Source: Halorubrum sp. BOL3-1
GTDB lineage: Archaea > Halobacteriota > Halobacteria > Halobacteriales > Haloferacaceae
DNA length: 64,000 bases
Assembly (NCBI RefSeq): GCF_004114375.1
Contig: NZ_CP034692.1
Location: 2,914,001-2,978,000, forward strand
Direction of reading: 5' to 3'
Positions within the stretch are counted from its first letter, which is position 1. Each line of letters starts with the position of its first letter. Shown here one piece after another: positions 24,559 through 41,283 of this stretch. The notes beneath the pieces are model-generated. The model saw only the letters and a program-made list of their open reading frames with translations. It searched no databases and had not been told where the DNA came from. A program made the position numbers and the translations under genes.

Positions 24559-24559
24559 T

Positions 24560-24735
24560 ATTTTTGAAGTCCAACTTTCTTGAACCACCTTTTTAAGAGA
24601 AACCTGATCCCAGCTGAGTCGTGCCTCTTCGAAACTGACCAGAACTGACGGACTCTCACCAGTAATCCTCTACGCAAGAGCATCACAGAGACCATGTGGT
24701 TCTGGGGAATCACGTCCGTTTAGTGTAGGAAACGC
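24560..24735 (-). pseudogene. Unknown gene fragment cut by the left repeat
   Basis: On the minus strand a coding-like frame reads RDSPEPHGLCDALA, TAG, RITGESPSVLVSFEEARL, SWDQVSLKKVVQESWTSK and then runs into the 215-bp repeat. Composition and phrasing look like a real protein, and the TAG falls where a Gln would fit, but I do not recognise the family. It appears to be the remains of a gene interrupted by the boundary element. Confidence 0.4.
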
Positions 24736-24781
24736 GCACCTGCGCATATCTGTGGCTATTTATATATAGTAGCCCTCTGAC

Positions 24782-24908
24782 TGCTGTGTTGAATAGCGGT
24801 CTCTAAGCCACGGTGAGACGATATTGATCTTGAAACCACTAGATTCAGCCGCCAACAAGCCAAATCAGATCTCGACCACCTCAACTAACACCGCTATTCA
24901 ACAGAGCA
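24782..24908. mobile_element. 127-bp MITE, copy 1
   Basis: Ends TGCTGTGTTGAATAGCGG and CCGCTATTCAACAGAGCA are inverted repeats. It shares these ends with the IS at 24917-25845 and is an inverted, diverged copy of the 127-bp element at 25854-25980. It is followed directly by GAATAAAT; the left flank CCTCTGAC does not match, so this copy lacks its own target duplication. No coding capacity; it would move with transposase supplied in trans. Confidence 0.75.
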
Positions 24909-24916
24909 GAATAAAT

Positions 24917-25845
24917 TGCTCTGTTGAATAGACGTTGAGTCACGGTTACAGCGACTCACACAGTGGTTCTATGTTGCTGATGGCGAACATCAGGACAATT
25001 TCACGGAACTGTCGATACCAGCTCAGCGCTCGCACGGCATCGCCGAGCGAGCGCTTCGTTGTCGAGTAGGATGTTTCGGCCATCCACCGCTGAGCGTAGC
25101 CGTTTGCTCGGTTGAGCGCGTTGTTCGCAGCTGCTTTCGCTGACGAACCACGGTAGTGGACGAGGTACTCAACGTCATGTGCGGCGATTTCGTACTCGGT
25201 ATGCCAGTCTTGGAAGCCGTTATCGGCGGCGACGGACTGCAGGTCGTCCGCGTTTCGGCGGACGACCTGCGGTCCGGTCTTTGTATCATGCTTCCACCGT
25301 GCTGCGATGTGAACATCGAGAACAGCAAGTGATTCCACATCAGTCAATGTCGTCGCTTTGAGCGTCTGTATTGTTCGTCCTGCCCGCTGGCGGAAGTACG
25401 ATGACGCACGTCGGCGGTCGAAAAACGTGCTGTCGAGCGCAGCGTGGCCAGACTGCGGGTGCTGCTGCGCGGAAACGCGCAGCAGCGCCCGCCACACCCA
25501 CATTTTCAGCCGATCAAACGACTTGTAGATCGTCGTATGATCGGGGAGATCGTCCTGATCTAAGTTGAGCGCATCACGAACCTCGGCCATGTACTTCAGC
25601 CGATTCGGCGTTTCACGGTAGCTGCGCTCGTCTTCGACCCGAAAACAGTGTAAAACGACGTGAACCCAGCGGGCGAACCCGCCGCTGGCGGGCTCGCCCG
25701 CGTGCTTCCCTAACGCTTGTTTAGCTAGGTCACGACACTGCTCAATGAAGTCGAGGATGTCGATCTCCATGGTAGGTTCGATTTTCTCGGCTTCACCCTT
25801 CTAAACCGGTGATATCGGCTAATAAGATCGCTCTTCAACAGAGCA
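24917..25845 (-). mobile_element. IS5-like insertion sequence, 929 bp
   Basis: Left end TGCTCTGTTGAATAG, right end inverted (CTCTTCAACAGAGCA). Both flanks carry GAATAAAT (24909-24916 and 25846-25853), an 8-base target duplication as expected for IS5/ISH1-type elements. It contains one intact transposase gene on the minus strand and is sandwiched between two MITEs with the same ends. Confidence 0.85.
24946..25770 (-). CDS. IS5-family DDE transposase
   Basis: 274 residues, intact. Catalytic residues of the DDE domain appear in AALDSTFFDRR (Asp), AADNGFQDW (Asp) and MAETSYSTTKRSLG (Glu with the following K/R). The N-terminal part (SYRETPNRLKYMAEVRDAL) is the helical DNA-binding region of haloarchaeal IS5 relatives. 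Related in its last 30 residues to the transposase at 31597-32427 (KRSLG then VRA and W-x-R-x-FREI). Confidence 0.88.
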   Translation of the reverse strand: MEIDILDFIEQCRDLAKQALGKHAGEPASGGFARWVHVVLHCFRVEDERSYRETPNRLKYMAEVRDALNLDQDDLPDHTTIYKSFDRLKMWVWRALLRVSAQQHPQSGHAALDSTFFDRRRASSYFRQRAGRTIQTLKATTLTDVESLAVLDVHIAARWKHDTKTGPQVVRRNADDLQSVAADNGFQDWHTEYEIAAHDVEYLVHYRGSSAKAAANNALNRANGYAQRWMAETSYSTTKRSLGDAVRALSWYRQFREIVLMFAISNIEPLCESL

Positions 25846-25853
25846 GAATAAAT

Positions 25854-25980
25854 TGCTCTGTTGAATAGCGGTGTTGGTTGAGGTGGTCAAAATCTGAGTC
25901 GGCTTGTTAGCACCCGAATCTGGCGATCTCAATATCGCTATCGTCTCACCGTGGCTTAGAGACCGCTATTCAACACAGCA
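25854..25980. mobile_element. 127-bp MITE, copy 2
   Basis: Starts TGCTCTGTTGAATAGCGG, ends CCGCTATTCAACACAGCA, inverted relative to copy 1 and of exactly the same length. Flanked by GAATAAAT on both sides (25846-25853, shared with the IS, and 25981-25988), so this copy has a true 8-base target duplication. Non-coding. Confidence 0.78.
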
Positions 25981-26061
25981 GAATAAATGATAGTGTAGCC
26001 GTCTGTTTTCTATTTTTATTATTTCAGACAAATGTATCTGTGCGTGACCGAAGTTACGGGA

Positions 26062-26105
26062 GTACAAAGAGAAAGTCTCACGCTTCAGCGCGGGGAGGAT
26101 GTCAA
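26062..26105 (+). repeat. Possible solo IS200/IS605 right end
   Basis: AAAGTCTCACGCTTCAGCGC followed by GGGGAGGATGTCAA resembles, from memory, the hairpin and terminal GGATGTCAA of haloarchaeal IS200/IS605 (TnpB) elements. The hairpin CGCTTCAGCG is visible. No tnpA or tnpB gene is adjacent. The terminal TCA doubles as the stop codon (TGA on the minus strand) of the next gene. Confidence 0.3.
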
Positions 26106-26452
26106 TCCGGAGCGTATTCTTCGTGAATCTGATCCATGCGAGCTGCCATTACGAAATCAGTCTTATGTAGTCCATCAATTTTGTGGGTCCACATTTCAAC
26201 TTTTACTTCCCCCCATTGAAGTTGTATGTCCGGGTGATGCCACTCCTCTTCGGCAAGCTCTCCGATTTCGTACGTGAACTCAAGTGCATCACGGAAATCC
26301 TCGAACGGATACTCTCCTTCCAGATGATGATTGTCTATAACTTCCCAGACATTATTAATTTTATTGAGGTACTTGATATACTCTTTCTCTATGAGTGGCT
26401 CGTCATCTGATGTACAGGCCTCACACGGTTCCTCGGCAAGTGATGATGCCAT
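26102..26452 (-). CDS. Pterin-4a-carbinolamine dehydratase-like protein
   Basis: 116 residues from ATG 26452. The dehydratase signature is clear: [40 protein letters not shown] (about residues 65-95), with the paired histidines of the active site. Known role is recycling tetrahydrobiopterin after aromatic amino-acid hydroxylation, or acting as DcoH-like or RuBisCO assembly relatives. No hydroxylase is nearby. AT-rich codon use unlike the chromosome suggests it came with the mobile block. A pair of cysteines (PCEAC) near the N-terminus is unusual. Confidence 0.75.
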
Positions 26453-26708
26453 ATATACGTATTTGATGGATAGTACTTGGGTCTTCCTCTCATACACCAG
26501 CCGTCAACAATAGGGCAAAACTACCGTACGGAGCCAAAATAGATTGACCTTGACAAATTATTACTCATATTTTAAACATCACTCCGGTTTAATACGAGTG
26601 TTCAGCAGTCAGGCGCTGAGCTCAACGTTTCGTATCGATTACAGCGAATAGATATGAAGTCTAAACGATTTTGAGACGCGACCATACTATTACACCTCCG
26701 ATAGAAGA

Positions 26709-28397
26709 TCAGCTCTCGCAGGCCTTACATTCGAGAAGATTTCGGCTGAACTTCTGTGCGGCATTCACACTCTTCTGGTAGTAGAGACTCTTCACCCCTT
26801 TCTCCCATGCTTTGATGTAGAGCTGGTTGATTTCCTTTGTGCTGACTTCACTTGGATCGATCGAGACGTTGATACTCTGTGCCTGATCGATGTGCTCCTG
26901 TCTCTGTGCTGCTTGGTTGATGATAGCCATCTGTGGGATTTCGGCCATGGTCTTGAAGACCTCTTTTTCTTCATCGGTCAGGCAGTCGAGATGCTGTGCG
27001 CTACCATCCTGATTTGCGATACTGTCCCAGACCTCTCTGTTGTCTTTGCCCCGCTCCTTCAGGATTGCTTCGAGGAACCGATTCTTCTGCGTTGACTTGA
27101 GCTTCGCGCCATCTCTCACGAAGTAGTTCGCCTTCAGCGGTTCGATACTTGGGCTCACCTGCCCTAAGATGACGCTGCTCGACTTGGTAGGGGCAACACT
27201 CATCGTAGTCGTGTTCCGCCGTCCGTATCCTTCGAGCATCTCTGGCTCACCAAATTCATCGGCGAGCCGCTCACTCTCTGCGTAGCTCTTCTCTTTGATC
27301 GTCCGGAACACGTTCTCATTCTTTTGCATCGCCTCCATACTATCGAACGGGATCATGTTGCTTTGGAGATAGCTGTGCCACCCGAGGACACCGATTCCGA
27401 TAGCTCGATGCCTCTTGGCAAACTGTACAGCTCGCTCCATGAACTGCGTCCCTTCCGTTTTCTGGATGAACTCCTCCATCACGGCGTCGAGGAAGCGAGT
27501 CAACGTCTCGACTGCGTCCGTATCTTTCCACTCGTCGTAGTGGAGCGCGTTCATACTCGAGAGGCAGCAGACGAAGCTCTCATCCGGGTTGGCGGGAAGA
27601 GCTATTTCCGTACACAGATTAGACGCATTGATCTGGTAGTCTTTGTCTTTGTAGACCTGCGGCCTCCCGTCGTTCATATTCCCCCTGAAGATGATGTACG
27701 GGACGCCGATATTGATTCGCATCTCGATGATCTTCGCCCATTTCTCTCGCTTTTCGCTATCGCCGTCAATCATCGCCTGGAACCACTCGTCACCGATGAT
27801 GACTCCGTAGTAGATATCCTGTACCGGGTCACCTTCGGTCTTGATGTTGAGCCATTCGTCGAGGTCGCCGTGCTCGATGTCGATGTAGCCCGCGAACTGG
27901 CCTCTCCGAGTTTCACCCTGACTCACGACGTTGATCGCGGTGTCGAAGAGTTCCGTGAAACTATAACTCCCGTTACTCTTTCCGTTGTTCGTGATCGGGC
28001 TGCCTCTTGGACGTATTTCACCGAAGTATCCGCTCGTGCCGCCGCCTAGCTTCGTCATTTCACCCACTTCGGCGTGGGTGTATAGGATACTCTCCATGCT
28101 GTCCTCGATGTAGCTGCCGAAGCAGCTGATAGGGAGACCTCTGTCCAGCCCGAAGTTTGCCCAGATCGGGCTGGCGAGGCTGTAGTACCCTCGGCTCATA
28201 TACTCGTAGAACCGGTCTGCGAAGCCGTCTTCGTCGAGGATTTCTTCGGCGTTCTCTGCGATCTGTCTGATCCGTTCCTTCGGATCAACACCCTCGAGCA
28301 GGTATCCCTCTTGGAGGAACTCGACGCTGTCGTCGTTCAACCAGTAGAACGGTTCTTGATGCTGCTCTTCGACGTTCGCGAGTTCTGTTTGCGGCAT
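26709..28397 (-). CDS. nrdA: Class I ribonucleotide reductase large subunit
   Basis: 562 residues. Reduces ribonucleotides to deoxyribonucleotides using the radical from NrdB. Seen: first redox cysteine in PISCFGSY (Cys92), NLCTEIALP with active-site Cys262 and Glu264, second redox cysteine in FVCCLSSMN (277/278), radical-relay tyrosines LYYQKS (539-540), and C-terminal shuttle CKAC (557-560). The catalytic domain starts almost at once, so there is no N-terminal ATP cone; overall dATP inhibition is not expected. Lies 2 bases after nrdB. Typical haloarchaea rely on a class II enzyme, so this copy is probably plasmid- or virus-derived. Confidence 0.92.
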   Translation of the reverse strand: MPQTELANVEEQHQEPFYWLNDDSVEFLQEGYLLEGVDPKERIRQIAENAEEILDEDGFADRFYEYMSRGYYSLASPIWANFGLDRGLPISCFGSYIEDSMESILYTHAEVGEMTKLGGGTSGYFGEIRPRGSPITNNGKSNGSYSFTELFDTAINVVSQGETRRGQFAGYIDIEHGDLDEWLNIKTEGDPVQDIYYGVIIGDEWFQAMIDGDSEKREKWAKIIEMRINIGVPYIIFRGNMNDGRPQVYKDKDYQINASNLCTEIALPANPDESFVCCLSSMNALHYDEWKDTDAVETLTRFLDAVMEEFIQKTEGTQFMERAVQFAKRHRAIGIGVLGWHSYLQSNMIPFDSMEAMQKNENVFRTIKEKSYAESERLADEFGEPEMLEGYGRRNTTTMSVAPTKSSSVILGQVSPSIEPLKANYFVRDGAKLKSTQKNRFLEAILKERGKDNREVWDSIANQDGSAQHLDCLTDEEKEVFKTMAEIPQMAIINQAAQRQEHIDQAQSINVSIDPSEVSTKEINQLYIKAWEKGVKSLYYQKSVNAAQKFSRNLLECKACES

Positions 28398-28399
28398 TG

Positions 28400-29410
28400 T
28401 TAGAACATCTCCTCTGCCGTGACGCTTTGCGTGTGCTTGTTGTACGTGGTCGACCGCTTGCTGAAGAAGTCGTTGTCCTTGGTCATCATAATATCTTCAT
28501 CGAACCACCGGGTCTCTTCGAGCAGCTCGTCATCGGTCTCGAACACTGGGTCCACGTCGACGTTTTCCAGACTTTGATTGAACCGGTCCTTCAGGAACTC
28601 ATCAACGTGCTCTCGGGGGAGAAACTCTAGCTCGCCGTCCTCGAAGATCCAATCGAGGATGTCCATCTCAGCCTCGTAGGCCTGTTGACAGGCCTCTTGG
28701 ACGTCCGCTTCGAGTTCATCATCGAACATCTCCGGGTTCTCTTCTTTGATCGTCTCGACCAATTCGACTCCGAACAGCCCGTGGATCTGTTCTTCCTTGC
28801 TGGTTGCTTCGACAGCGTTCGCGATCCCCTTGAACTTCTTCTCGTGCTTGTCGAAGCTCGTCATTATCAGGAACTGGCTGAAGAGTGAGACGTGCTCGAC
28901 AAACGTACTGAACAGGAGGATATTTTTCACATACTCCTGTTTGTCATTCTCTTCGTTGGTTTCTAGACACCGGTCAAGGTACTCGATTCTGTTTTTGACA
29001 GCAGGAACCTCAGTCACCTGCTCGAAGTCGTCTTCGATTCCGAGGATCTCAAGCAGGTGGCTGTAGGCGTCCATGTGTCGCACTTCGCTCTCCGCGAAAG
29101 TCATACCTACATTGCCGACCTCTGCTTTTGGCATCTCTTCGTAGATATCTGACCAGAAGGTTTTCACCTGCACCTCGATCTGTGCGATAGCCAGCATTGT
29201 CCGCTTAATAACGGTCTTTTCGGCAGGGGTCGTGTTAACCTTGAAATCCTGGACATCGCCCGAGAAGTTGAATTCCGTATGAACCCAGTAACTGTTGCGT
29301 ATCGCATCAGTGTAGTCACGGAAGTCGCCGTACTCGTACGGTTTCAGCTGTGTTCGTTCGGAGAAGATGTCGGACTCTACTTCTCCGCTCGTGGTTTCAT
29401 TCTTACTCAT
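28400..29410 (-). CDS. nrdB: Class I ribonucleotide reductase small subunit
   Basis: 336 residues from ATG 29410. Ferritin-like radical generator. Metal ligands appear as AQIEVQVKTFW (first carboxylate, about Glu79), FAESEVRHMDAYSHLL (ExxH about 109-112, and radical Tyr four residues after the His, about 116), FVEHVSLFSQ (about Glu172) and KEEQIHG (about Glu207 and His210). The presence of the tyrosine points to a conventional tyrosyl-radical type (Ia/Ib-like). The C-terminus ends TAEEMF, a plausible docking tail for NrdA. Confidence 0.92.
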   Translation of the reverse strand: MSKNETTSGEVESDIFSERTQLKPYEYGDFRDYTDAIRNSYWVHTEFNFSGDVQDFKVNTTPAEKTVIKRTMLAIAQIEVQVKTFWSDIYEEMPKAEVGNVGMTFAESEVRHMDAYSHLLEILGIEDDFEQVTEVPAVKNRIEYLDRCLETNEENDKQEYVKNILLFSTFVEHVSLFSQFLIMTSFDKHEKKFKGIANAVEATSKEEQIHGLFGVELVETIKEENPEMFDDELEADVQEACQQAYEAEMDILDWIFEDGELEFLPREHVDEFLKDRFNQSLENVDVDPVFETDDELLEETRWFDEDIMMTKDNDFFSKRSTTYNKHTQSVTAEEMF

Positions 29411-29438
29411 TAGTACGTCTGTTTCGTGTGCGTTTGTG

Positions 29439-29927
29439 TCATTGTGATTTGTTCGGGTCTTCAAAATCGTCTAGCTCCGCATCTAAGACCGCATCAAGCT
29501 CTTTTAGGAATTCTTGCGGCTCAGAAAATGATTTATAAACTGAGACAAATCGGATGTAGGCTACCTGATCAAGTGTCCGAAGGTTCTCAGAGACAAGATC
29601 GCCGATCAGACTCGACGAGATAATCCGTTCGTCTCTGGCCCGCAGTTCTGCCTCGACTGTCTCCAGCAGTTCTGCGACTTGCTCGTCTGTTATTGGTCGT
29701 TTCTCTACGGCTCGAATGATGCCGTTACGGAGTTTCCGCTTGTCGTATGGCTCAATCTCTCCGTTCCGCTTTTTCACTTGGAGCGAGTCCCATTCTGGGC
29801 GCTCGTATGTGGTAAATCGGAACGAACAACGGCAGCATTCGCGCCGCCGCCGCACAGTATCTCCACTCGCGTTTGAGCCTGTATCGAGGACACGTGTGCG
29901 GTCGTTATCGCAGTCTGGGCAGTTCAT
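29439..29927 (-). CDS. nrdR: Transcriptional repressor NrdR
   Basis: 162 residues. N-terminal zinc ribbon MNCPDCDNDRTRVLDTG with the second pair in CCRCSFRFTTYERPE, then an ATP-cone domain (VKKRNGEIEPYDKRKLRNGI and the following helices to about residue 135). NrdR senses ATP/dATP and represses nrd genes. It is the first gene of nrdR-nrdB-nrdA (28 bases before nrdB), so it likely represses itself and the reductase. The cone absent from NrdA is found here instead. Confidence 0.92.
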   Translation of the reverse strand: MNCPDCDNDRTRVLDTGSNASGDTVRRRRECCRCSFRFTTYERPEWDSLQVKKRNGEIEPYDKRKLRNGIIRAVEKRPITDEQVAELLETVEAELRARDERIISSSLIGDLVSENLRTLDQVAYIRFVSVYKSFSEPQEFLKELDAVLDAELDDFEDPNKSQ

Positions 29928-30154
29928 GTATTTGATTGTCGGATTCCTTTGTCGAACCCTACCGTATATGTGGGATAGTCAGTTTCACCACAATATATGC
30001 TATGCCGAAGCCAGTATTAAATACTACTGGTCCGATTGTACTAGTACAAGTAGATTTGTTTCTGAGGTTGTGAGACTCTCACCGGCCACAGATGTCGGAC
30101 GCTGATTACCTCACCGGGCCCACACGCCATCGTCGAAGTCGATAGCGTCGTTCC
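29928..30154 (-). promoter_or_regulatory. nrd operon promoter with possible NrdR boxes
   Basis: AT-rich leader before nrdR. ACCGTATATGTGG (29961-29973) and ACAATATATGCTA (29990-30002) share TATATG and are 29 bases apart, loosely like paired NrdR boxes (consensus ACACTATATCT), though classical spacing is nearer 31. A further TATTAAATACTA (30014-30025) could be TATA sequence. Weakly supported. Confidence 0.3.
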
Positions 30155-31221
30155 GAGGGTGTCATAGAACGATTAGCACACTAAAGAGCAGGGTGAACGC
30201 TGAGGTGGATGAGTTCAGCGACCCCGTAAAATGATCCTTCGGTAGAGTCGTTGTTCAATGTCGTGGAGACGGAAACGCTGGCGTTGTTTGAGCATCTCTC
30301 CTTCGAGTTTCTCGAGGAGTTCGACGTGTTCGCCCCGGCGGAGACGGAGAGAACACGAGATCATGAACCACCAGAGCTGATGCGTGGCTTTCTCCACTGC
30401 TACTACAAGGACATCTGCGGCATTCGTCCCGTTGAACGAGAACTTCGAAACACGGTTGCTTGGCTTAGCTGTGGCTTCGATCGACCGCCGTCGAGAGATG
30501 CGGTCGGTCGATTTCTCACCGGCCTCGAACACGTCGTCGACGATATCTTCACCCGTCTCGTCGAGCAGGCCGCGGCGGGCGGCCTGCTCGACTTGACCTA
30601 CTGTATCGATTCAACCGACGTGAGGGTGATACCAGCCGATCCAGACGCGTCGAAGCGCTACGATCCAACCGAGGACGGGTACTACTACCGCTACGGCTGT
30701 ACGATCATCTCGACTGGACAAAAGACCCGATTACAGCTGAGTTCACCGAGAGCAAACAAGCACCGGAAGAGACGGCGATGCGCGTCACACGTGACGCGCT
30801 CGGCGTTGAGCAACCGGTCTGGATGATCGGTGACAGCGCCTACGATACGCTCGACTGGCGCGACCACCTGCTGACCGCAGGGGTCGTGCCAGTCGTTCCG
30901 TACAACGCACGAAACACCGACGACCCGAAAGACATCGAGTACAAGGTCGAAGACCGCATCGAAAAACACAGCGAGGACGTACAGCTGAAGCGATCAACGC
31001 TAGACGAGACGTACAACCGGCGAAGTGCCGTCGAACGAACCAACGAATCAGTCAAGGACTGCGGCCTCGGGCGAACGCACGCCCGAGGCCGCGTTCACGC
31101 ACGAGCACAAGTATTCCTCGGGCTGTGCCTTCGTCTCGTCGTCGCAATCACCAACTATGAACGTGGAGACAATCCGGGAAGTACCGTGATTATGGTGTGA
31201 GAACTCTTCTATGACACCCTC
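30155..31221 (+). mobile_element. Insertion sequence with 15-bp perfect terminal repeats
   Basis: GAGGGTGTCATAGAA at 30155-30169 and its exact inverse complement at 31207-31221 bound one transposase reading region. Flanks (CGTTCC and TCATCA) show no clear target duplication. Size 1067 bp. The gene inside is frameshifted. Confidence 0.8.
30251..31200 (+). pseudogene. Frameshifted DDE transposase
   Basis: Frame 1 runs from MFNVVETETLALFEHLSFEF to CTIISTGQKT; frame 2 continues from about 30730, with TESKQAPEETAMRVTRDALG, to the stop at 31200. Together they give a full haloarchaeal IS4/IS5-type transposase with CIDSTDVRVIP (Asp), MIGDSAYDTLDW (Asp) and RRSAVERTNESVKD (Glu). The shift falls near 30722-30740. 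Either inactivated, or expressed by frameshifting; no slippery heptamer stands out, so I favour inactivation. Confidence 0.8.
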
Positions 31222-31519
31222 TCATCAATTGAAGGAGCAATTAGCGTGTTGAGGCTCCCATCAAGCACTTGCTGTACAGCATTCTGGACCACATTCGTTA
31301 TTTGTAGATGATACTTCTAAGAATGATATTCTAGAATATGATTACTCAGAGTATTTTATCTCATACCCACAGACTGGGATGTATGATAGACTTCGTGAAT
31401 CGGCCGGAGGAACTGGATCGGTTTCACAGCTTGTTCGACTCAGAGAGCGCTGAACTCGCCGTCATATACGGCCGGCGACGTCTTGGGAAAACGCGACTCG
31501 TTAGGAAAGCGCTTGATGG

Positions 31520-32459
31520 GGCTGTGTTGAATCGCCATACGGCGGCAGGGTAGGTCGCTAAATCAAAGGAGCTGAAGCGGGAAACTGCGGTTGTCTATGA
31601 CGCAAATCTCCCGCTTCATCGGGGAAGTTGTGCCGGTTGCTCAAAGAGTTACTGGCGATGGAGGCGAATCCGCCGCCCCGGAAGGCGGCGGCGGATTCGC
31701 CGACTACGCACTCGTTTCCCTCCACTGTCTGCGAATTTACCTCGACACATCCTATCGGATGACAATCGACCTACTCAAAGAGATGCCACAAATAATTGGG
31801 GAGATCGGCCTTGACGCGGCCGATCTCCCCGTGCCGTCCACGTTGTGTAAGGCGTTCGACCGGATCAGTATGAGCGTCTGTCGAGTGCTGCTGCGCCAGT
31901 CGGCGCAGCTGCACGATCTCTCCGAACACGCCGCGATCGACGCCACATTCTACGAACGCTCAGCAGCGAGCCGCCACTACTGCCAGCGAATCAGCTACCA
32001 CGTTCAGAAGCTGAAAGTCACGAAACTCGTCGATACAGCGTCTCAAGCTGTCCTTGACGTTCACTGCTCAACCAACCGGGAAGGAAGTGACGCAGATCTC
32101 GCTGAGCAGATCGCCCGCCGGAACGCGGGCGATCTGCGGTCTCTCGCTGCCGATAAGGGCTACGACAAGCAATCGCTCCGCGAAGGATTACGCGATCTCA
32201 GTATCAGACCGCTGATCAAGCACCGCATCTTCGCACCGTACGACCACGCACACAACGCCAGAATCGACGATAACCGCTACAATCAGCGCTCTATGACCGA
32301 AACCGTGAACTCGGCTATGAAGCGCTCGCTCGGCTTCGCCGTGCGAGCGCGGTCGTGGTTCCGCGAGTTCCGTGAGATCGCTCTGATGTGTATGGTCTAC
32401 AACATCAAGCGCTTTGTCAAACAGTGAATCTCTACGCCTTACAGCGATTCAACACAGCC
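31520..32459 (+). mobile_element. IS5-like insertion sequence, 940 bp
   Basis: Ends GGCTGTGTTGAATCGC and its inverse (GCGATTCAACACAGCC). Flanked by CTTGATGG at 31512-31519 and 32460-32467, a perfect 8-base target duplication inside the ATPase gene. Ends resemble those of the 24917 IS and the MITEs (TGTTGAATNG), so they belong to related groups. Confidence 0.9.
31597..32427 (+). CDS. IS5-family DDE transposase
   Basis: 276 residues from ATG 31597 (MTQISRFIGEVV), intact. Catalytic residues in AAIDATFYERS, AADKGYDKQ and MTETVNSAMKRSLG. A short internal inverted sequence (GGCGGATTC around 31660-31700) encodes the GGESAAPEGGGGF loop. The perfect target duplication around it implies a recent insertion. 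Confidence 0.9.
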   Translation: MTQISRFIGEVVPVAQRVTGDGGESAAPEGGGGFADYALVSLHCLRIYLDTSYRMTIDLLKEMPQIIGEIGLDAADLPVPSTLCKAFDRISMSVCRVLLRQSAQLHDLSEHAAIDATFYERSAASRHYCQRISYHVQKLKVTKLVDTASQAVLDVHCSTNREGSDADLAEQIARRNAGDLRSLAADKGYDKQSLREGLRDLSIRPLIKHRIFAPYDHAHNARIDDNRYNQRSMTETVNSAMKRSLGFAVRARSWFREFREIALMCMVYNIKRFVKQ

Positions 32460-33860
32460 CTTGATGGACAAAAGGACGCAGTCTTTTATCAGGCCCGGCA
32501 AGAGGCGCGAGAGCTCCGACGAGAACAGTTTGTGGAGGCGGCAGCTGACACGTTTCCCGGTATCGAGAGCATTTGCCCCGATTGGGAGCGACTGTTCAGG
32601 TATCTGGCCGAACAGGGTGTAATCGTCGTCCTTGGCGAGTTTCCGTACCTGATCGAACAGGACGAGAGTCTTCCGTCTGTGTTACAGGCGTTATTCGACA
32701 ACGAGTTCGCCGAGTCGGAGACAACGTTCGTGGTTGTCGGATCGTCGATCAGCATGATGGAAGAGGCGACACTGCTTGGAGATAGCCCGCTGTACGGACG
32801 GACGTCACTCACGCTCGACATCCGTGAACTCTCTTTTGACGCCGTCACAGAGTTCCTGCCAGACCGTACGACGGCAGACGACGCTGTCCGCGCATGGAGC
32901 GTATTCGGTGGCGTTCCGTACTACCCTGAGGAACTCGACGCTGACCGATCGCTCGGTGAGAACATTCAGCGGACGGTGTTGACTCATCACGGCTCGCTCG
33001 GAAACGAACCAGAGCACGTCCTCCGAATGGAACTGCGGGAACCGACGCGCTACTTCTCGATCCTCGAAGCGATCGCGGGCGGAGCGACCGGTCGAAACGA
33101 GATCGCGGGCGTGACAGGCATCGACTACAATCAGCTATCGACGTACTTGGACCGCCTCTCTCGGCTTCGGCTCATCGAACGGCACGTGCCGGTGACTGAG
33201 AGCGCCGAACGATCAAAGCGGAGTCAGTATCGGCTGCGTGACCCGCTCTTCCGGTTCTGGTTCCGGTTCCTGTACGGGAGTACGGACCGGTATGATCATT
33301 TCGGCGAGAACGCGTACGAGCGGCTGGTCGAGCCGGGGCTGGCCGATTTCGTCGCTCCCGCATTCGAGTAACTGTGTTGTGAGGCCCTGTGGACGCTGTA
33401 CGATGAGACGCCGATCACCGATGTCGGACAGTGGTGGTATCAGGACCACGAGATTGATGTCGTCGGACTCACCGACACCGAGACGCTTGTTGTCGGCGAG
33501 TGTAAGTACCAAGAATCGCAACTCGACTACAGCGCACTCAATACACTAGAACGACATGTCGAAGAACTCCGGTGGCAGCCGTCCGGGAGTGACACGCGGG
33601 CCGTCAAATACGCGTTGTTCTCTCGGATCGAGTTTACGAATACGGTTCGCGAGGCTGCCGCCGATCGAGATGATTTGCGTCTGTATACGATCGATGACAT
33701 CGTCGCCGCACTCGGCGGGTAACAGCTGTGTGGCACAATAATTAACACACCTGTTCGACCGCGAGAGTGAGATCTTCAAACCAGAGAACAGGTCAAGCCA
33801 TAGACCAGCAAATATTCCACCTGCGACACGGAAACCCCGGGGAAAACCTTGATGAAGTAT

Positions 33861-33876
33861 CGTATACGACGTATAC
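33861..33876 (+). promoter_or_regulatory. Putative VapB operator
   Basis: CGTATACGACGTATAC contains the palindrome GTATAC twice, 9 bases apart, ending two bases before the vapB ATG at 33879. Antitoxins of this kind usually autoregulate by binding palindromes overlapping their start. Confidence 0.4.
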
Positions 33877-33878
33877 AC

Positions 33879-34127
33879 ATGAGTACGAAGAGCGTCCGGC
33901 TCGATGAAGATGTCTACGAGCGGATTAAAAGCGAGAAACGTCCCGACGAGACGTTTTCAGAAGCCATCGACCGTCTCACCGGGGGTGCGTCACTGCTCGA
34001 TCTCGTCGGGATCCTCTCCGATGAGGAAGCCACGGAGCTCCGAGCAGTGATCGACGGGACCGACGAGGACGCGGTCGACGAGATTGATGAGGTAGTCGAA
34101 CGGTTCGAGGACAGCAGTGATTCTTGA
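33879..34127 (+). CDS. VapB-type antitoxin
   Basis: 82 residues from ATG 33879. N-terminal MSTKSVRLDEDVYERIKSEK followed by RPDETFSEAIDRLTGG is a ribbon-helix-helix-like DNA-binding element typical of haloarchaeal VapB antitoxins; the acidic C-terminal tail would wrap the toxin. It overlaps the PIN-domain toxin gene by 11 bases, the normal arrangement for translational coupling. Confidence 0.85.
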   Translation: MSTKSVRLDEDVYERIKSEKRPDETFSEAIDRLTGGASLLDLVGILSDEEATELRAVIDGTDEDAVDEIDEVVERFEDSSDS

Positions 34128-34509
34128 TTCCTCGTTTCTGATCGACTTGATGAACGCCGACGAGGACGCGATAACGGTCGCGAACGATCTTGAGTCTACG
34201 GACGAACCCCAGCGCGTTCCCGCACAGGTCGTCTACGAACTGTACGTTGGCGTGGGTTATACCGAGCAGACTCACGATGAGGTCGGAAAGATTCAATCCG
34301 TGCTCAATTCTCGGCCCATTGTTCCTCTCACCGACGAAATCGCGCGCCACGCAGGCCGTATCGATGGACAACTCCGTCGTGAAGGAGACCGAGTAGGACA
34401 AGGTGACATCAAGATCGCGGCGACTGCGCTCCGTCATGATGAGCCGGTCGTTACAGGGAATCCCAAAGACTTCAACCGAATCTCCGAGTTGATCGTTCGA
34501 GACTACTGA
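34117..34509 (+). CDS. VapC toxin, PIN-domain ribonuclease
   Basis: 130 residues from GTG 34117. PIN-domain acidic residues are visible: LDSSFLIDLM (Asp4), VVYELYVGV (Glu, about 41), GDIKIAATAL (Asp, about 98) and TGNPKDFNRI (about 114-123). VapC toxins cleave tRNA or rRNA. All catalytic positions are kept, so the pair is probably active and may stabilise the mobile block. Confidence 0.88.
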   Translation: MILDSSFLIDLMNADEDAITVANDLESTDEPQRVPAQVVYELYVGVGYTEQTHDEVGKIQSVLNSRPIVPLTDEIARHAGRIDGQLRREGDRVGQGDIKIAATALRHDEPVVTGNPKDFNRISELIVRDY

Positions 34510-34571
34510 AAACGCCGAGAGCGTCGCGTAGGTATCAGGAATCGCCGCTCAACTACAGTACACTGACTAAC

Positions 34572-34721
34572 ATGCCCGACGACATCAGCAACACCCGCTC
34601 CGGCGACGAGAGGATCGTGACGGACGACGCCGAAACCGAGGCGGGCTTCCTCGAGGATCGCGACCCCGAGGACTACCCCTCAGTGCTCCAGATCACGTCT
34701 GACCCTGTCAGCGTCAGATGA
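34572..34721 (+). CDS. Small acidic hypothetical protein
   Basis: 49 codons from ATG 34572: MPDDISNTRSGDERIVTDDA and onward to a TGA at 34719. GC-rich third positions and acidic composition look like real haloarchaeal coding sequence, unlike its AT-rich surroundings, but it may be the start of a longer gene that was truncated. Family not recognised. Confidence 0.4.
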   Translation: MPDDISNTRSGDERIVTDDAETEAGFLEDRDPEDYPSVLQITSDPVSVR

Positions 34722-34826
34722 ATGAAAGAGACGACATCGTGAATTGCCTAGGGGTCAAACCCCGAAGCACTCTGGGTTTAATTCTGTAGAACTGTTTTTA
34801 CGATAGTATTCGACTATGTTATAGAA

Positions 34827-34952
34827 TGCTCTGTTGAATAGCGTCCTCTGAGTTATGTTGAGGAACACCTGATTTGAGATCTGACTCCTTGGCTGCTCAA
34901 AAGATGGCTCAGATCGAACTGGTCTACACAGTTATCGCTGTTCAACAGAGCA
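34827..34952. mobile_element. 126-bp MITE, copy 3
   Basis: Ends TGCTCTGTTGAATAGCG and CGCTGTTCAACAGAGCA; flanked by TTATAGAA on both sides (34819-34826, 34953-34960), an 8-base target duplication. The interior is diverged from copies 1 and 2 but length and ends agree. Non-coding. Confidence 0.8.
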
Positions 34953-35039
34953 TTATAGAACAGAGTCAAAAATCTGTGCCAGCGTCACAGTATAAAAGAG
35001 CGCTACCGTAGTCGACAAGTCTTCCAGCAATTGCGGACA

Positions 35040-35665
35040 CACCCGGGGGTGTGTGTATCGAACAACTGCCAATACAATCGGCGCCAGTTCAGTGTCTGCT
35101 GCTCGTTGAGCCAACTTTTCGCAAGCTCGTTGAACTCAACCGATTCGAATCGAGAAACAGCCTCCAGCACCTCGATCGCTGTCGATGGCTCGACACGGAG
35201 TTCAAACGTATAGGCTTCACCACCGACCGATCCCGAGGCAGATTTCGTGCCCGAATAATACTCAGCATATCAAGCTCGATGAGATGATCACGCATTCGGC
35301 GTTGGGCCAACCGGTCAGCACCAATATGGTCGGAAAGAGAGGCATAGACATCATAGACGTCGCGGGTCCGAATCCCGGAGTAGCCTCCAAGTTCGAGAAT
35401 TGTCACCGGTGCTAGCGCGAGGTGACCCTGGGTCGTGAGCTGTTCCATCCCTTCGATGACGAGCTCTCGCTCAGCTTCGCTTTGAGCGGCTCGGACATAT
35501 TCTTCCCCAACTCGCGTATCACCCTCAGATTCAGCCATCGCAACGGCTTTCCGGAGGTACTTGATTGCTTGACGAGCATTTTCTTTGTCCTGAGCAGCGT
35601 ACGCAGCACAGAGTGGAATCACGCCGTCAGTTAGAATATCTGACTCTATACGAAGAAGCGTACAA
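35040..35665 (-). pseudogene. Truncated Orc1/Cdc6 gene, C-terminal part
   Basis: Minus-strand ESDILTDGVIPLCAAYAAQD to ELGGYSGIRTRDVYDVYASL and LIELDMLSIIR is the C-terminal region of an archaeal Orc1/Cdc6 (end of AAA+ lid plus winged helix). Near 35250 the frame shifts, and GTKSASGSVGGEAYTFELRV plus EPSTAIEVLEAVSRFESVEF continue. The AAA+ ATPase core is missing; the sequence stops abruptly at a transposase remnant. A second initiator, now dead. Confidence 0.75.
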
Positions 35666-36261
35666 TCAGTTCGATCAACGTCGATTTGTTCGAACGGTTT
35701 GGCAAGCGAGCCATCGTCGTCATCCAGGTCGACGAATCTGGCAAAGTCTGTTCAGGCTACAAAGGCCAAGAGCCGCGGCGGAACAGCCGTTCTCGCGGCG
35801 GCTCGTCCCAAACCGGTCGGTCACGCTGGCGAGGACGCCACGATGACCAACTGACGCTCGTCGCCGCGTGCCGCGACTCACTTCGTGTGATACGTGGACA
35901 GCGTGGCATCGACTACGAAGGCGATCTTGATCCAGTAATTCAGGAGGCTGAAGACCTCTCCTAGCCGCTGGGAGAGGTCTGGACAGACAGTCTCCAAGCA
36001 TACCGCCAGATGGATCGTGATCACCGAACGGTCGTCCACAAAATGCGGTATGTATCGCCCGACGGCGTCCACATCAATCAGGCTGAGTGCCTATTTTCTC
36101 TCGTTCAAGCGTGGCTCCGGAAGTTCCGCGGCCTGTCCAAGCAGGGCTTGGAACAGGCCGCTCACACGTTTGGCCTCATCAGATCGTTGAACCTCACCGG
36201 CGCATCCATCGATATCACCATCAATTGCCTTGTTATGGGAGCTTTCCGCAGTTCTACATAG
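35666..36261 (+). pseudogene. IS1595/ISH4-like transposase remnant
   Basis: A single frame reads FERFGKRAIVVIQVDESGKV, then degraded sequence to IDYEGDLDPVIQEAEDLS, a TAG at 35962-35964, PLGEVWTDSLQAYRQMDRD, RYVSPDGVHINQAECLFSLV and AWLRKFRGLSKQGLEQAAHT. HINQAECLFSLVQ and LRKFRGLSKQ are characteristic of IS1595-type haloarchaeal transposases. N-terminal zinc-binding part and terminal repeats are missing. Confidence 0.65.
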
Positions 36262-36344
36262 GAGCGCCAAAATTTAACCAACACTGGCGGTTGGTAGGTC
36301 CTACCTGTTGGTTAAGGCCGGCTCGAATGGCGTCAAACCCACAC

Positions 36345-36863
36345 ACCCCTCTATCGATGTGTTCCATCAAACTGCTGGCTAGCAAAAATGGGTATCGAAC
36401 TGTATGTGTCTGTCATGAGACGGAGATAACCGGTGGTAAATCGTCTAAGAGATACGATACGCGGGTTAGAATGATACACAGGATATCGTTGGTCTTTGGG
36501 CATTAGAATACCGTTGGCTCGAACACATCGAACACATCGATAGAGGGGTGTGTGTGTGTTGTGTATAATAAGAGAAAGAGAAGAGAGAAGAAGAGGTAGC
36601 GAAACGAGGATAGCTACTACGAGCTTTTAGACGATCTCCGTCAGTTTCAGCGTTTCACGGGTGAATTGCCATCGACGGCATCTATCTCACCCCCACCCCG
36701 TGAAGACATCGAACACATCGATAGAGGGGTGTGTGTCTTCCCGGCTTCACTGTGCGCACACATCGTCAGTCGTCCCTCATATCCTGAGCAACGACTGATA
36801 ATACTGCCGTCTATACCGGTGTGAATTCTCATAACGGACAATTACACTTCGATAGAGGTGGGG
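36345..36863. repeat. Origin iterons upstream of orc1/cdc6
   Basis: 20-base repeat ACACCCCTCTATCGATGTGT. Copies: 36345-36364 forward; 36532-36551 and 36713-36732 reverse, both exact; 36844-36863 reverse, degenerate (ACACTTCGATAGAGGTGGGG). An extra half copy, ACACATCG, lies at 36523-36530. The repeat itself has ACAC/GTGT ends and an ATCGAT core. The last copy ends 35 bases before the orc ATG and may allow autoregulation. Confidence 0.85.
36566..36600 (+). other. Purine tract, candidate DNA-unwinding element
   Basis: GTATAATA followed by a 27-base uninterrupted purine run (36570-36596) lies between iterons at 36532 and 36713. Such asymmetric, AT-containing stretches often mark the unwinding region of an origin. 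Position inside the iteron cluster supports this; there is no direct evidence. Confidence 0.4.
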
Positions 36864-36897
36864 AAACTTTTTGAAACAAGCCGCTGTGGGTCAGTGT

Positions 36898-38358
36898 ATG
36901 GGTATTGACGACTCCGATGATTCTAACAGACCGGGATCCCCGGAGGAGGACGTGACGGCTCAAACCGATCTTTCGAGCGCAACGGATCTTGGCGAAGCAG
37001 ACACTTCCCCCGCAACACCCGTCTCTGAATCAGGTCACTCGGCTGGTCAGCCTGAGGACGACTCACCGCAGTCAATCGAGGATATGCTCCTCGAGTTCGA
37101 CGAACAGCAGGGGCTAATCCGTGATCGGTCGCTACTCGATCCGAACTTCGTCGTTGAAGAGGATCGTATCGTCGGCCGTGACGAACAGCTCCAAGAGGTC
37201 ACGAAGATGCTCCGGGTTGCGCTCGGTGACAACCGGCCACCAAATCTCTTTCTCTACGGGCCGTCCGGGACCGGAAAATCGCTCATCACGAAGGCAGTAT
37301 GTAACAATATCAGCCGGATCTGTGACTCCCGTGATATTCGATTTGGTACAATTGAGGTGAACTGCCAAGACCTGGACACGCTCGGCGTCGCCGTGTACGA
37401 ACTCGCACAACAGGCCGCCGATAAAGCCGGTGTCGATGTCGAGGTTCCGAAACACGGTGTCGCGACGAAAGAAAAATGGGACGAACTCTATCGGATCGTC
37501 AACACCCATTTCGACTCGGCCGTGTTCGTCCTCGACGAGCTAGACATGCTCGTTGGCCGGCGAGACAAACAAGAACCCGCGTTTTCGCGGCTGCTGTATC
37601 AGCTCTCGCGGGCCGGTGCCAACGACGAACTGACCGCGTACATCTCAGTCGTCGCGATCTCGAACGACACGAAGATGATGGAGTCTGTCGGGAGTCGAGC
37701 AGTCAGTTCGTTCACGCCCGAAGACGTCCACTTTGACGATTACGACGCTGATCAGCTTCAGTCGATCCTCCGACGTCGCGAAGATGCGTTCCACGACGAT
37801 GTCGTCGACGACGACGTCATCCCGCTTGCTGCCGCGTTCGCAGCCCAAACCCACGGCGACGCACGAAAGGCGATCGACCTCATGCGTGTGGCCGGTGAAC
37901 TCGCCGAACGTGAAGGCGACTCACGGGTCCAAGAAGAACACGTCCGAGAAGCACAAGCGAAGGTCGAAAAGAATCGCGTGTTAGAGGTTGTCCGTGGGAT
38001 CAGCACCCAAAAGAAGCTCTGTTTGTACGCAACGGCTGCCTTCGCCACCCAAACGACCGATGGGACAGCGCGGAGTACGACCGGATACCGGGTATACCAG
38101 TATCTGACAGACGCGATTGACGCGGATCAGTACCACCAGGAGACGTACGTGAACAAGATGAAAGAGCTCACGACGTACTCGCTTGTCGACTTTGAACGTC
38201 GGAGCCATGGCCCTAGTTCGGGGATGTTCCTCGAATTCCAATTTGCTGAGCGGCCAGATACGATTCTGGAGACCCTCCGTGAAGACTCACGTATTGAGAT
38301 GGTCTCTGAAAGTGAGGTCGAATCTGTCGTCAAAGCCCAGATCCGGAACCAAACGTAA
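36898..38358 (+). CDS. Orc1/Cdc6 replication initiator
   Basis: 486 residues from ATG 36898. Residues 1 to about 60 are an acidic, Ser/Thr/Pro-rich extension. AAA+ motifs: Walker A YGPSGTGKS (about 120-128), Walker B FVLDELDML (about 210-218), sensor-1 region VVAISNDTKMM, and sensor-2 stretch THGDARKAIDLMRVAGELAE. The winged-helix domain spans about 360-486 (STTGYRVYQYLTDAI, LTTYSLVDFERR). Flanked by nine iterons, so it is the initiator of this replicon. Divergent in style from chromosomal Orc1, closer to plasmid-borne types. Confidence 0.93.
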   Translation: MGIDDSDDSNRPGSPEEDVTAQTDLSSATDLGEADTSPATPVSESGHSAGQPEDDSPQSIEDMLLEFDEQQGLIRDRSLLDPNFVVEEDRIVGRDEQLQEVTKMLRVALGDNRPPNLFLYGPSGTGKSLITKAVCNNISRICDSRDIRFGTIEVNCQDLDTLGVAVYELAQQAADKAGVDVEVPKHGVATKEKWDELYRIVNTHFDSAVFVLDELDMLVGRRDKQEPAFSRLLYQLSRAGANDELTAYISVVAISNDTKMMESVGSRAVSSFTPEDVHFDDYDADQLQSILRRREDAFHDDVVDDDVIPLAAAFAAQTHGDARKAIDLMRVAGELAEREGDSRVQEEHVREAQAKVEKNRVLEVVRGISTQKKLCLYATAAFATQTTDGTARSTTGYRVYQYLTDAIDADQYHQETYVNKMKELTTYSLVDFERRSHGPSSGMFLEFQFAERPDTILETLREDSRIEMVSESEVESVVKAQIRNQT

Positions 38359-38394
38359 CCAAATCAACGGGTTTTGGTATCGTAATCGGAGTAG

Positions 38395-38728
38395 ACACCC
38401 CTCTATCGATGTGTATTAGATGTCTGGTATCAACCCACAATCTCTGGGATTGGTAGCTCGATTTCTCTACTCGACCTACGGTTCGGCTGACCGGAAGGGA
38501 CACCCCTCTATCGATGTGTGATCGCGGCTGAGAGTCACTTAGATAGCTCTTTTCTGGAGCTACTCATTAACGGTACCACCTTGGTTAACACCCCAAATGT
38601 CCAGTATTCAATTGGTTTATACCCGACACCCCTCTATCGATGTGTTTTGAAACGCCCTACTTGAATACACCCCTTTATCGATGTGTTTACGGAGCCCACA
38701 CATTGGACACACTCCTCTATCGAAGTGT
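38395..38728 (+). repeat. Origin iterons downstream of orc1/cdc6
   Basis: Five forward copies of ACACCCCTCTATCGATGTGT: 38395-38414, 38500-38519 and 38626-38645 exact; 38667-38686 with one change (CTTTATC); 38709-38728 with two changes. Start-to-start distances are 105, 126, 41 and 42 bases, all close to multiples of 10.5, so the sites face the same side of the helix. No gene lies in this 400-base stretch. Confidence 0.88.
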
Positions 38729-38776
38729 ACGAACGAGCATCGGGTACCTCTCGGTATCAGCGAGGACCCTCAATGA

Positions 38777-39100
38777 CTATTCGTCTGCGTTGACCGGCCC
38801 CTTATATTTGGATGTCACCGAGTCTCCTTCTCGCCACTGCCAGTAGTAGTAACGGTTGTCATTGATTTCCTTGATCGTTACCGTCGCCCTCGAGGGGACG
38901 TCATCCGGGAAGTCGTCGGGGCGCTCGTCGCTCTTGTCTCCCTCTGGCTCTTCTTCGAGAGGAGCCTCGCAAGCTTTGTACTCTGTGAGTTCCTCGGCGT
39001 AGCGTGCGACGTGCTGGAGCTGATCTGAGGAGTAGTCGCTGAGTATCTTGACGATGTCTGTCGGGAGCTCCGCCGGTGGCGTCGGTGGCTTGTCGGACAT
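38777..39100 (-). CDS. DUF6788-like hypothetical plasmid protein
   Basis: 107 residues. An N-terminal helix (DIVKILSDYSSDQLQHVARYAEE), an acidic linker, then the compact end VTIKEINDNRYYYWQWREG with SKYKGPV. The YxYWQWREG..SKYKG pattern recalls short haloarchaeal proteins (DUF6788 type) found near plasmid and viral replication or recombination genes. Function unknown. Immediately after the last iteron, convergent with orc. Confidence 0.6.
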   Translation of the reverse strand: MSDKPPTPPAELPTDIVKILSDYSSDQLQHVARYAEELTEYKACEAPLEEEPEGDKSDERPDDFPDDVPSRATVTIKEINDNRYYYWQWREGDSVTSKYKGPVNADE

Positions 39101-39400
39101 CAGAGTTCGTCTCGTGTTAACGAAAAAGGCCTACAACGGTAGATTTGTTGGTTAATCAGACTCCAACTCACTACCTATTGAAGAGTACGAATAGCAAACC
39201 ATCGGTGTTTGTATTGGATTCTCTCGAATCTTGGATTCGCCTACCGATACACCCCGACCCGCACCCAAATCGACCCCTCTCTACCCTTTTTTACATGGTT
39301 TCTTGTAGGCTCAACCAGTAAGGACTACGATATGTCTCGACGACTATCCCGAGCGCGAAGACCGAAGCGCGTCTAGCTCAACCAGACCGAAGCCAACAAC
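39101..39400. other. AT-rich intergenic stretch
   Basis: About 300 bases with no credible gene on either strand. It contains a T-rich tract CCCTTTTTTACATGGTTTCTTG (about 39282-39303), which may end transcription, and pyrimidine-rich CCCGACCCGCACCC. It leads into the integrase remnant. Confidence 0.35.
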
Positions 39401-39720
39401 GAGGTCGGAGCTCTAATCGCTGAGGCGTAGCCTCCCCAACAGGTGATCGCCTTTCGACTCGGCGCGCAGGCCGGCCTCCGACGCGAAGAAACTGCGAGCG
39501 TCAGGGCGAACGACTTCACCCACGCTCCCGACGGGTTCCTCCGTGTTTGGAACGACTACGCGAACGCGGGAAGTATCGCGAGACACCGATCCCCGAAGAA
39601 CTTGCCAGGTCGGTACTGACGGTCTCCTACGACCGCGCTCCCGACGAACCGATCGTTGATGTCGAGCCGACCTCGATCTATCGGTGGGTGAAGCGTGCTG
39701 ATGTTCCCGATGATCGTTTC
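39400..39720 (+). pseudogene. Tyrosine integrase remnant
   Basis: EVGALIAEA, TAG, PPQQVIAFRLGAQAGLRREE and TASVRANDFTHAPDGFLRVW are in one frame; after NDYANAG the frame shifts to KYRETPIPEELARSV and ends near VEPTSIYRWVKRA. AFRLGAQAGLRREE carries the first catalytic Arg of haloarchaeal XerD-like tyrosine recombinases, and KYRETPIP is the usual following beta-hairpin. The C-terminal catalytic half with the Tyr is absent. It may be the original integrase of the block. Confidence 0.65.
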
Positions 39721-39968
39721 GGTTGCCGTTCGGTTACCGTCGAGCCAGAGCAGCGTCGTCGCGTCTCCAGTCGGGCTCCACATCAGTAACTCGGCGCGCG
39801 TAACGGGTGTCCCATCGATAATCTTCTGATGAAGGGGATGAATCAGCTGCTCCGGATAGCGGACCGAGAATTGGATACGCTTCATACTGCCGTTATGAAA
39901 CGTTTGCCGACGCCACATATCAATCCGTGTCTCTTTCTCGTGTAACTGGTAGGATCTGTGCGACCAAT

Positions 39969-40703
39969 TCATTGATACGCCTCCAAGATGTCAGGGACAC
40001 ATTCCACGAGTGTCTGGAGGTGGTCTGTGTCGTGAATCTCGTGTAACTGTGGTTCGGGAGCCGAGCTTCAAGACTGCGAACGTCTTCGAGTGGGACGTTA
40101 GTGTCGTCTTCCCCGTGCCAGAAATGAGTCCCGATGTCAATCTGCTTGAAGTCGATCCTCCAGTTCTTCCCGACGTTGCTGAGCTCGGCCACCGCGCCAC
40201 TCCGATGACGGGCGAACGCTTCGAGGAAATCTGCCTTGACGATTTCCGCGACGTCGTCAGGAACTGACTCTGCGCTGTCCCCTGTGGTGTACTGATCGAC
40301 GACGAATGCCGGATCAAGGTGAGCCGTAAGCCACGACTGGCCTCGAAACAGGCTGCGGAGGACGAACTGCGCCTTTGTCGCCGTGCCGGTGAGAAAGCGC
40401 TGTATCGGGGGTGTGTTCTCACTGATGTCGGGCGGTGTTGTACCCGCGACGATATCGATACGATCGAGACGATCCACATGTGTCGATGCGGTTGCGAGCG
40501 CGTTCGCGCTGCCGCCAGAAAAGGCGATAAGCCCCGAAATCTGTACACCAGCGTCGTCAAGGACGGTATCCACGACTTCCCCAGCATCACGGATAGAGCG
40601 ATCAGGCCACGGCGAGGAGCGACCGTATCCAGGGCGGTCTGGTACGAGCATCCGGACGTCAGCCCGTTCTGTGACAGTGTAAAAAAGCTCGCCGAGCAGG
40701 CGA
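39969..40703 (-). pseudogene. Alpha/beta hydrolase truncated by the right repeat
   Basis: Minus-strand frame GELFYTVTERADVRMLVPDR to PGYGRSSPWPDRSIRDAGEV, nucleophile elbow IAFSGGSANAL and HFWHGEDDTNVPLEDVRSLE is a typical alpha/beta hydrolase. Near 40066 the frame shifts to PEPQLHEIHDTDHLQTLVEC and VPDILEAYQ with a stop at 39969-39971. The N-terminus is cut at about 40703 by the 215-bp element. HDTDH carries the expected catalytic His. Confidence 0.8.
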
Positions 40704-40918
40704 GGTCGCGTTAAGTTAAGCAGAATTCACTGACAGCGAGTTGATCGAGCCGATTGGTGAGACACCGCTTATTCCTCTCAAATTATTGGATAAGCAATAC
40801 TTCCGTGGAGACTATCAAAAACTGGCCGTTCAGCGGATCTGTTGTGAACGAGATCTCGTTTTTGACTTACTCCGAACCGCCAGACAGCGACCGAACTCAC
40901 CACTAACTTAACGCCACC
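40704..40918 (+). repeat. Right 215-bp boundary repeat (less degraded copy)
   Basis: Starts GGTCGCGTTAAGTTAAGC, ends CTAACTTAACGCCACC; ends are inverted repeats. An open frame inside reads EFTDSELIEPIGETPLIPLK, then LLDKQYFRGDYQKLAVQRIC and RTARQRPNSPLT with a TAA in the terminal repeat. That is the look of the C-terminal end of a transposase kept in a MITE-like deletion derivative. Inverted partner at 24344-24558. Confidence 0.78.
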
Positions 40919-41283
40919 CGAGATTGTGGACATCCGTTTTCAGCAGGAAGTCGGCCTAGAGCGGATCGCCGAGTTCGTCGCCGAGTACGAGGGGACCGGC
41001 GTGTAGGGTGCCCTCAAGAGGCCGTCTTCGATGTCCTCTGCTGTATCACCGTCTTTCCCGGGTCCGCGAACGGGTCGACGGAAAAAAGGAGGTCTTCCGC
41101 GACTGTTCCACCCTGCCCGAGGGAGCGACGACCGAGGACTTCACGTTCCACATCCACTCGGACATCGGTGAGAGGCTCTTTCACCGCACCGACTGCCGGA
41201 GCGGTCAGCAGGTCGGGAAGGGCAACGAGCTGACTCACCGCGACGTGATCGAACTGATCTTGACAAAACAGGTGGCTCCGTAG
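40919..41283 (+). pseudogene. C-terminal remnant of a YchF/TGS-domain GTPase
   Basis: PEIVDIRFQQEVGLERIAEF and VAEYEGTGV are followed by a TAG, then by EAVFDVLCCITVFPGSANGS in a shifted frame, and KKEVFRDCSTLPEGATTEDF, HIHSDIGERLFHRTDCRSGQ and VGKGNELTHRDVIELI in a third. The last part is a TGS domain as at the end of haloarchaeal YchF-like GTPases. N-terminal GTPase part is absent; the fragment begins at the right boundary repeat. Confidence 0.65.

Follow-up and report, generated by a model that had tools for sequence, protein, structure and literature searches.

A probable Orc1/Cdc6-dependent replication origin of a haloarchaeal megaplasmid family in a low-GC chromosomal island, with facing boxes mostly spaced near whole helical turns

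The window, a 64-kb stretch of the Halorubrum sp. BOL3-1 genome, covers positions 2,914,001-2,978,000 of the 3,374,117-base contig C3, and the locus described here is therefore on a chromosome-size replicon. Eight copies of the 20-mer ACACCCCTCTATCGATGTGT with 0-2 mismatches surround an intact orc1/cdc6 gene, where 0.01 copies would be expected in shuffled sequence of the 64-kb window, and the rest of the 3.67-Mb genome contains a single further copy, with 1 mismatch, on contig C2. An earlier note on this DNA counted nine copies around orc1/cdc6, but the ninth counts only as a degenerate box with 4 mismatches. The upstream order given in that note, one forward copy followed by reverse copies of which the last precedes the initiator, was found again with this degenerate box as the last, and the start distances of the downstream copies (105, 126, 41 and 42) were the same on recounting. 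All core boxes of the locus match the 20-mer exactly. The features are as follows, in window coordinates.

36343-36362, forward strand: core box of the simple form, left half of the convergent pair, found in the 20-mer scan and conserved in position among relatives
36521-36555, reverse strand: first reverse box, in the extended 35-nt form (core 36532-36551), right half of the convergent pair
36552-36604, no strand assigned: AT-rich then purine-rich tract adjoining the first reverse box, conserved in relatives
36690-36699, no strand assigned: C-rich motif CCCCCACCCC directly ahead of the second reverse box, conserved in relatives
36702-36736, reverse strand: second reverse box, in the extended 35-nt form (core 36713-36732)
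36844-36863, reverse strand: degenerate promoter-proximal box ACACTTCGATAGAGGTGGGG, with 4 mismatches over the 20-mer
36864-36872: BRE/TATA of orc, AAACTTTTT, directly abutted by the degenerate box
36898-38358, forward strand: orc1/cdc6 initiator gene, 486 aa from the conserved ATG, in a frame open from TTG at 36871
38395-38414, forward strand: downstream array box 1
38500-38519, forward strand: downstream array box 2
38626-38645, forward strand: downstream array box 3
38667-38686, forward strand: downstream array box 4, 1 mismatch
38709-38728, forward strand: downstream array box 5, 2 mismatches
38777-39100, reverse strand: conserved 107-aa gene, convergent with orc and downstream of the array in many relatives

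The initiator gene is intact according to a domain search, which identified AAA+, Cdc6 lid and C-terminal winged helix domains, and the protein matches the solved archaeal Orc1/Cdc6 structures 2v1u and 2qby. The ATG at 36898 is a likelier start than the TTG at 36871 because a conserved TATA box is found ~28 bp ahead of the ATG, and the transcript is probably leaderless. Alignment of the sequence ahead of the ATG revealed the same succession in nearly all alignable loci, namely ACAC[T/A]TCGATAGNGGT, GGGGAAC, TTTTT, ~26 bases and the ATG, and the first of these elements is a weak copy of the box, directly next to the BRE and TATA. The placement of the box at 36844-36863 by the BRE/TATA suggests a site for autoregulation of orc. 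A near-perfect box is also found ~50 bp ahead of the orc start in nearly all of the 61 loci (L068, L221-L280) of a second origin family of the same genome (Orc at C3:400555, box GTTTCCGGTGAAA), and with promoter-proximal boxes in both families autoregulation is a reasonable proposal. No Pfam or NCBIfam family was matched by the 107-aa gene at 38777-39100. A truncated second orc1/cdc6, predicting the lid and winged helix only, is located beside the intact origin at 35089-35622 on the reverse strand.

Both upstream reverse boxes are 35-nt elements with the structure ACACAC-[box]-TCGATGTNTT, the opposite strand of which ends in the G-rich sequence GAGGGGTGTGTGTGT, which has GT repeats and a short run of G but no long G stretch. 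The repeat had been described as lacking the usual long ORB form with a G-string, which is correct for the short simple boxes but not for the upstream reverse copies, as these are longer and have a G-rich end. The tract at 36552-36604, where the AT fraction is 0.60-0.66 and the purine fraction up to 0.84 in relatives, is the best candidate for an unwinding element. Only one forward box is present upstream in the window, where relatives usually carry two. A remnant of an IS at 35725-36266 (79-89% identity) adjoins the site of the missing second forward box, and a remnant of the same type is also near the origin in four other loci (L012, L013, L020 and L048). Just beyond both ends of the origin are sequences of the TGTTGGTTAA type, one at 36277-36317, where it is palindromic, and one at about 39149-39158.

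A strong match to the Orc was detected in 110 of 391 genomes of the class, and the 20-mer with at most 1 mismatch in 103, while the reversed-pattern control gave zero matches in the haloarchaeal genomes scanned for the 20-mer. The search of plasmids and genomes that the earlier note had proposed therefore did find the repeats near related orc genes. Among plasmid records, 412 include an Orc match (39 of them at 80-90% identity) and those that are annotated are mostly orc1/cdc6 initiators. The Orc family is mainly on plasmid-size contigs, and no relative was found in the viral contigs searched. The 20-mer boxes flank orc in essentially every relative of at least 78% identity, and a sister group at 67% has diverged boxes, mostly with 3-5 mismatches. 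The core of the box is almost invariant among 457 copies. In 93 distinct loci the usual layout consists of two forward boxes, two reverse boxes and the degenerate reverse box, followed by orc and then by two to six forward boxes.

As the same boxes flank close relatives of the Orc in about 90 loci, mostly on plasmids, the region is best assigned to the Orc/ORB-type origins, a known kind, in agreement with the Orc1/Cdc6-type origin first proposed for it. The locus is very probably a complete replication origin that depends on Orc1/Cdc6 and belongs to a megaplasmid family widespread among haloarchaea. It is located in a low-GC island on the main chromosome, and the 20-mer repeats are probable docking sites of its Orc. 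In haloarchaea, ORBs and Orc are linked by family (Wu 2012, PMC3528665), and pHLAC01 (Hrr. lacusprofundi) and pL131 (N. pharaonis), both analysed in that study, carry the same Orc family as the window. The origin system is thus already known in kind, its Orc family being on replicons analysed in 2012 (PMC3528665). What was suggested to be a distinct plasmid origin class belongs with the many Orc/ORB families described in haloarchaea (PMC3528665), and is carried here by a chromosome-size contig of 3.37 Mb instead of a plasmid. Like the families of Wu 2012 (PMC3528665), the window has orc flanked by inverted family-specific boxes and extended boxes with a G-rich end, and these families are likewise mostly extrachromosomal with transposases nearby. 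The window differs from them in its short simple boxes without the long G-string, and the integral-turn pair, the promoter-embedded degenerate box and the in-place inversion of the core are absent from the main text of that paper.

At oriC2-cdc6E of Haloarcula hispanica, too, boxes flank the initiator gene on both sides and a separate array follows directly downstream of it (PMC3936714). There, oriC2 is repressed, probably by titration, by the ORB-rich region oriC2D that lies downstream of cdc6E (Wu 2014, PMC3936714); oriC2D has no origin activity, lowers the activity of oriC2, and is deletable only once oriC2 is gone. The likeness is one of layout; the two differ in that oriC2D has 11 boxes in 722 bp (PMC3936714) and the window array five in about 335 bp.

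Taken together, these elements could operate as follows. The Orc of the locus would bind its own boxes of all classes, the observation being that boxes and Orc family travel together. Orc on the pair 36343(+)/36532(-), whose members face the same side of the helix at a distance of 18 turns, and on the second extended box at 36713 would form an initiation complex, and this complex would open the AT/purine-rich tract at 36552-36604 so that MCM could be loaded. Orc bound to the degenerate box at 36844-36863 would repress its own leaderless transcript, and the five downstream boxes would hold initiation back by titrating Orc, in the manner of oriC2D of Haloarcula hispanica. The promoter box and the downstream array would then be the outline of a two-part control circuit combining autoregulation with titration. 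Bacterial iteron plasmid origins likewise carry multiple initiator sites close to the initiator gene, and autoregulation and titration are possible there too. However, their initiator is a bacterial Rep protein where that of the window is an Orc1/Cdc6 AAA+ protein, and tandem array phasing is not conserved in the window family.

The island that carries the origin is bounded as follows.

24343-40919, no strand assigned: low-GC island, with a GC fraction of mostly 0.49-0.57, compared with 0.60-0.73 in the surroundings
24343-24559 and 40703-40919: inverted 217-bp MITE-like copies at the island edges, 77% alike, with ends GTTAAGTTA/TAACTTAAC

The 217-bp MITE-like element is present in five copies in the genome, and others were found at 90-91% in two related genomes. 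Identification of the two edge copies as terminal repeats of one large transposon was dropped, as they are two diverged copies of this five-copy element. The island also includes genes for the large and small subunits of a class I ribonucleotide reductase and NrdR (26709-29927, reverse strand), which are enclosed by IS5-family transposase genes at 24946-25770 and 31591-32427, as well as a VapBC pair. When the flanking genes were used to look for an empty site, they were not neighbours in the relatives checked (e.g. Hrr. lacusprofundi) and no clean empty site was found, the comparison being complicated by one flank gene that is present in three near-identical copies. The metallo-beta-lactamase/rhodanese gene at 21916-23109 on the reverse strand is one of three nearly identical copies on its contig (96-100% identity). 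Elsewhere on C3, at about 3.03-3.29 Mb, a low-GC block of roughly 260 kb (mostly 0.54-0.62) is perhaps an integrated megaplasmid.

The view that chromosomes can take up plasmid origins is well established (PMC3528665, PMC4441112). Across 800 kb around the locus the GC skew is flat, without a turn in the 400 kb on either side of the origin, and is thus uninformative on firing; given the absence of a turn, the origin may be dormant or newly acquired. A plasmid origin brought in by the island that no longer fires, its boxes persisting through recent acquisition while oriC1-type origins do the work, is a reading with a probability not far short of even. It would account for the foreign-looking GC and the flat skew, and for the loss of one forward box beside the IS remnant and the truncated orc copy at 35089-35622, and predicted origins without autonomous replication are known in H. 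hispanica (PMC3528665). Against this reading, neither the orc gene, which has all its domains, nor its promoter is damaged, the core boxes are all exact, and the distance within the core pair is exactly 18.0 turns.

The spacing of this convergent pair, one of several box spacings examined, was taken from the last forward box to the first facing reverse box. In the window, the pair 36343(+)/36532(-) has a spacing of 189 bp, or 18.0 turns. Across 81 loci, 89% of the convergent spacings are within a quarter turn of an integer, compared with 50% expected (R10.5=0.58, mean phase -0.3 bp), and the values are mostly 173-181, 186-191, 196-202, 207-212, 220, 228-233, 247-250 and 259, with gaps between. 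With each distinct length counted once, the best period in the range 6 to 16 was 10.50, and R10.5 was reached by none of 20,000 random sets. On the same basis, no significant period was found for the reverse-reverse, forward-forward, forward-to-second-reverse or downstream spacings. The idea of helical phasing put forward in the earlier note was hence right in kind, but across species the phasing belongs to the convergent pair upstream of orc and not to the downstream array. No description of helical phasing of archaeal ORB pairs was found in the literature searched, which included the main text of PMC3528665.

We put the chance that this integral-turn constraint is real at even or somewhat better. 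The stronger proposal, that facing Orc boxes must sit integral turns apart (16 to 25 are seen), which would point to a stereospecific Orc-DNA-Orc complex looping or wrapping ~150-240 bp and to a core that can flip with its function kept, stands at about even chances. How archaeal Orc molecules at separate boxes cooperate in opening the origin is not a settled question, and the core spacings of about 95 homologous origins, which range from 167 to 297 bp and are mostly near whole turns, provide indirect evidence of contact between Orc molecules on facing boxes.

Integral spacing could also be an accident of shared ancestry and few indels, without selection, a possibility of clearly less than even probability. 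Many loci share spacings of 187-189 or 198-201 by descent, and collapsing all convergent spacings to clusters left n=10 with p=0.10. Simulation of indels on the Orc tree gave 0/400 at rates matching the number of distinct lengths, but p of 0.015-0.07 at slower rates and higher values at the slowest, and the slower simulations with p of 0.07 or more are compatible with an accident. On the other hand, further clusters are found at about 179, 210, 220, 230 and 250, and the spacings outside the two commonest clusters are within a quarter turn in 22 of 28 cases (p=0.002). The two halves of the Orc tree agree when taken separately (p=0.001 and 0.012), as do 14 further plasmid loci fetched after the rule had been formed, 13 of which are within a quarter turn, with nine sharing the common 197-200 class. 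The other spacings of the same loci have no period, which again argues for a constraint on the convergent pair itself. In the second origin family, the convergent pair of many of the 61 loci is tight, with a constant spacing of 56-57 bp; this layout differs, and the family is therefore neither for nor against the generality of the integral-turn rule.

Some loci have the middle extended box on the forward strand, and their core interval can be matched to relatives only after reverse complementation. Inverted cores were detected by pairwise scoring against shuffles in L016 relative to L013 (z=13.5), in L133 relative to L042, L033, L044 and L045 (z 13-24), and in L028, L119 and L132 relative to L135 and L043 (z about 6-10). 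No inverted core was found by blastn at a length of at least 100 bp, a method that is blind to them because the spacers diverge fast. The core upstream of orc has flipped independently in at least three lineages, with the ends at the inverted boxes. The flipped layout, with the spacings kept, is what would result if the outer inverted boxes recombined with each other. Such cores bear on the question of how important the polarity of an origin is.

Phasing of the five downstream boxes of the window is significant for a period of 10.5 bp (R=0.96, p=0.002) and remains so when the period is left free (p=0.007), in line with the claim that these boxes share one helix face. However, conserved helical phasing of the downstream array was rejected. 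Among 33 loci with arrays of at least 4 copies, p was <0.05 in 7 and <0.01 in 2, and with near-identical relatives collapsed R10.5 for the first and second downstream spacings was 0.14-0.27, which is not significant. The second spacing varies among relatives, the closest included (126, 127, 128, 131 and 141), and spacings near 41 bp recur in many relatives without periodicity. A cluster of boxes directly 3′ of orc is also present in most relatives and, by analogy with oriC2D, the five boxes most likely titrate Orc. That they are instead a second phased platform for initiation or loading is improbable, since, although the window boxes are on one helix face (R=0.96) and box distances of ~41 bp recur in many relatives, the phase is lost even in the closest relatives (second spacing 126-141) and the comparable oriC2D is by itself incapable of autonomous replication (PMC3936714).

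Boxes without an adjacent Orc of the family were also detected, one on C2 (L007, C2:42669), four in L165 and two in L166, and these orphans may be remnants of origins that were lost. The genome of the window has further orc genes (L070, L071 and L073), each flanked on both sides by a distinct box family of its own, and two-sided boxes are thus ordinary in this genome. In L073, the downstream boxes are exactly 49 bp apart.
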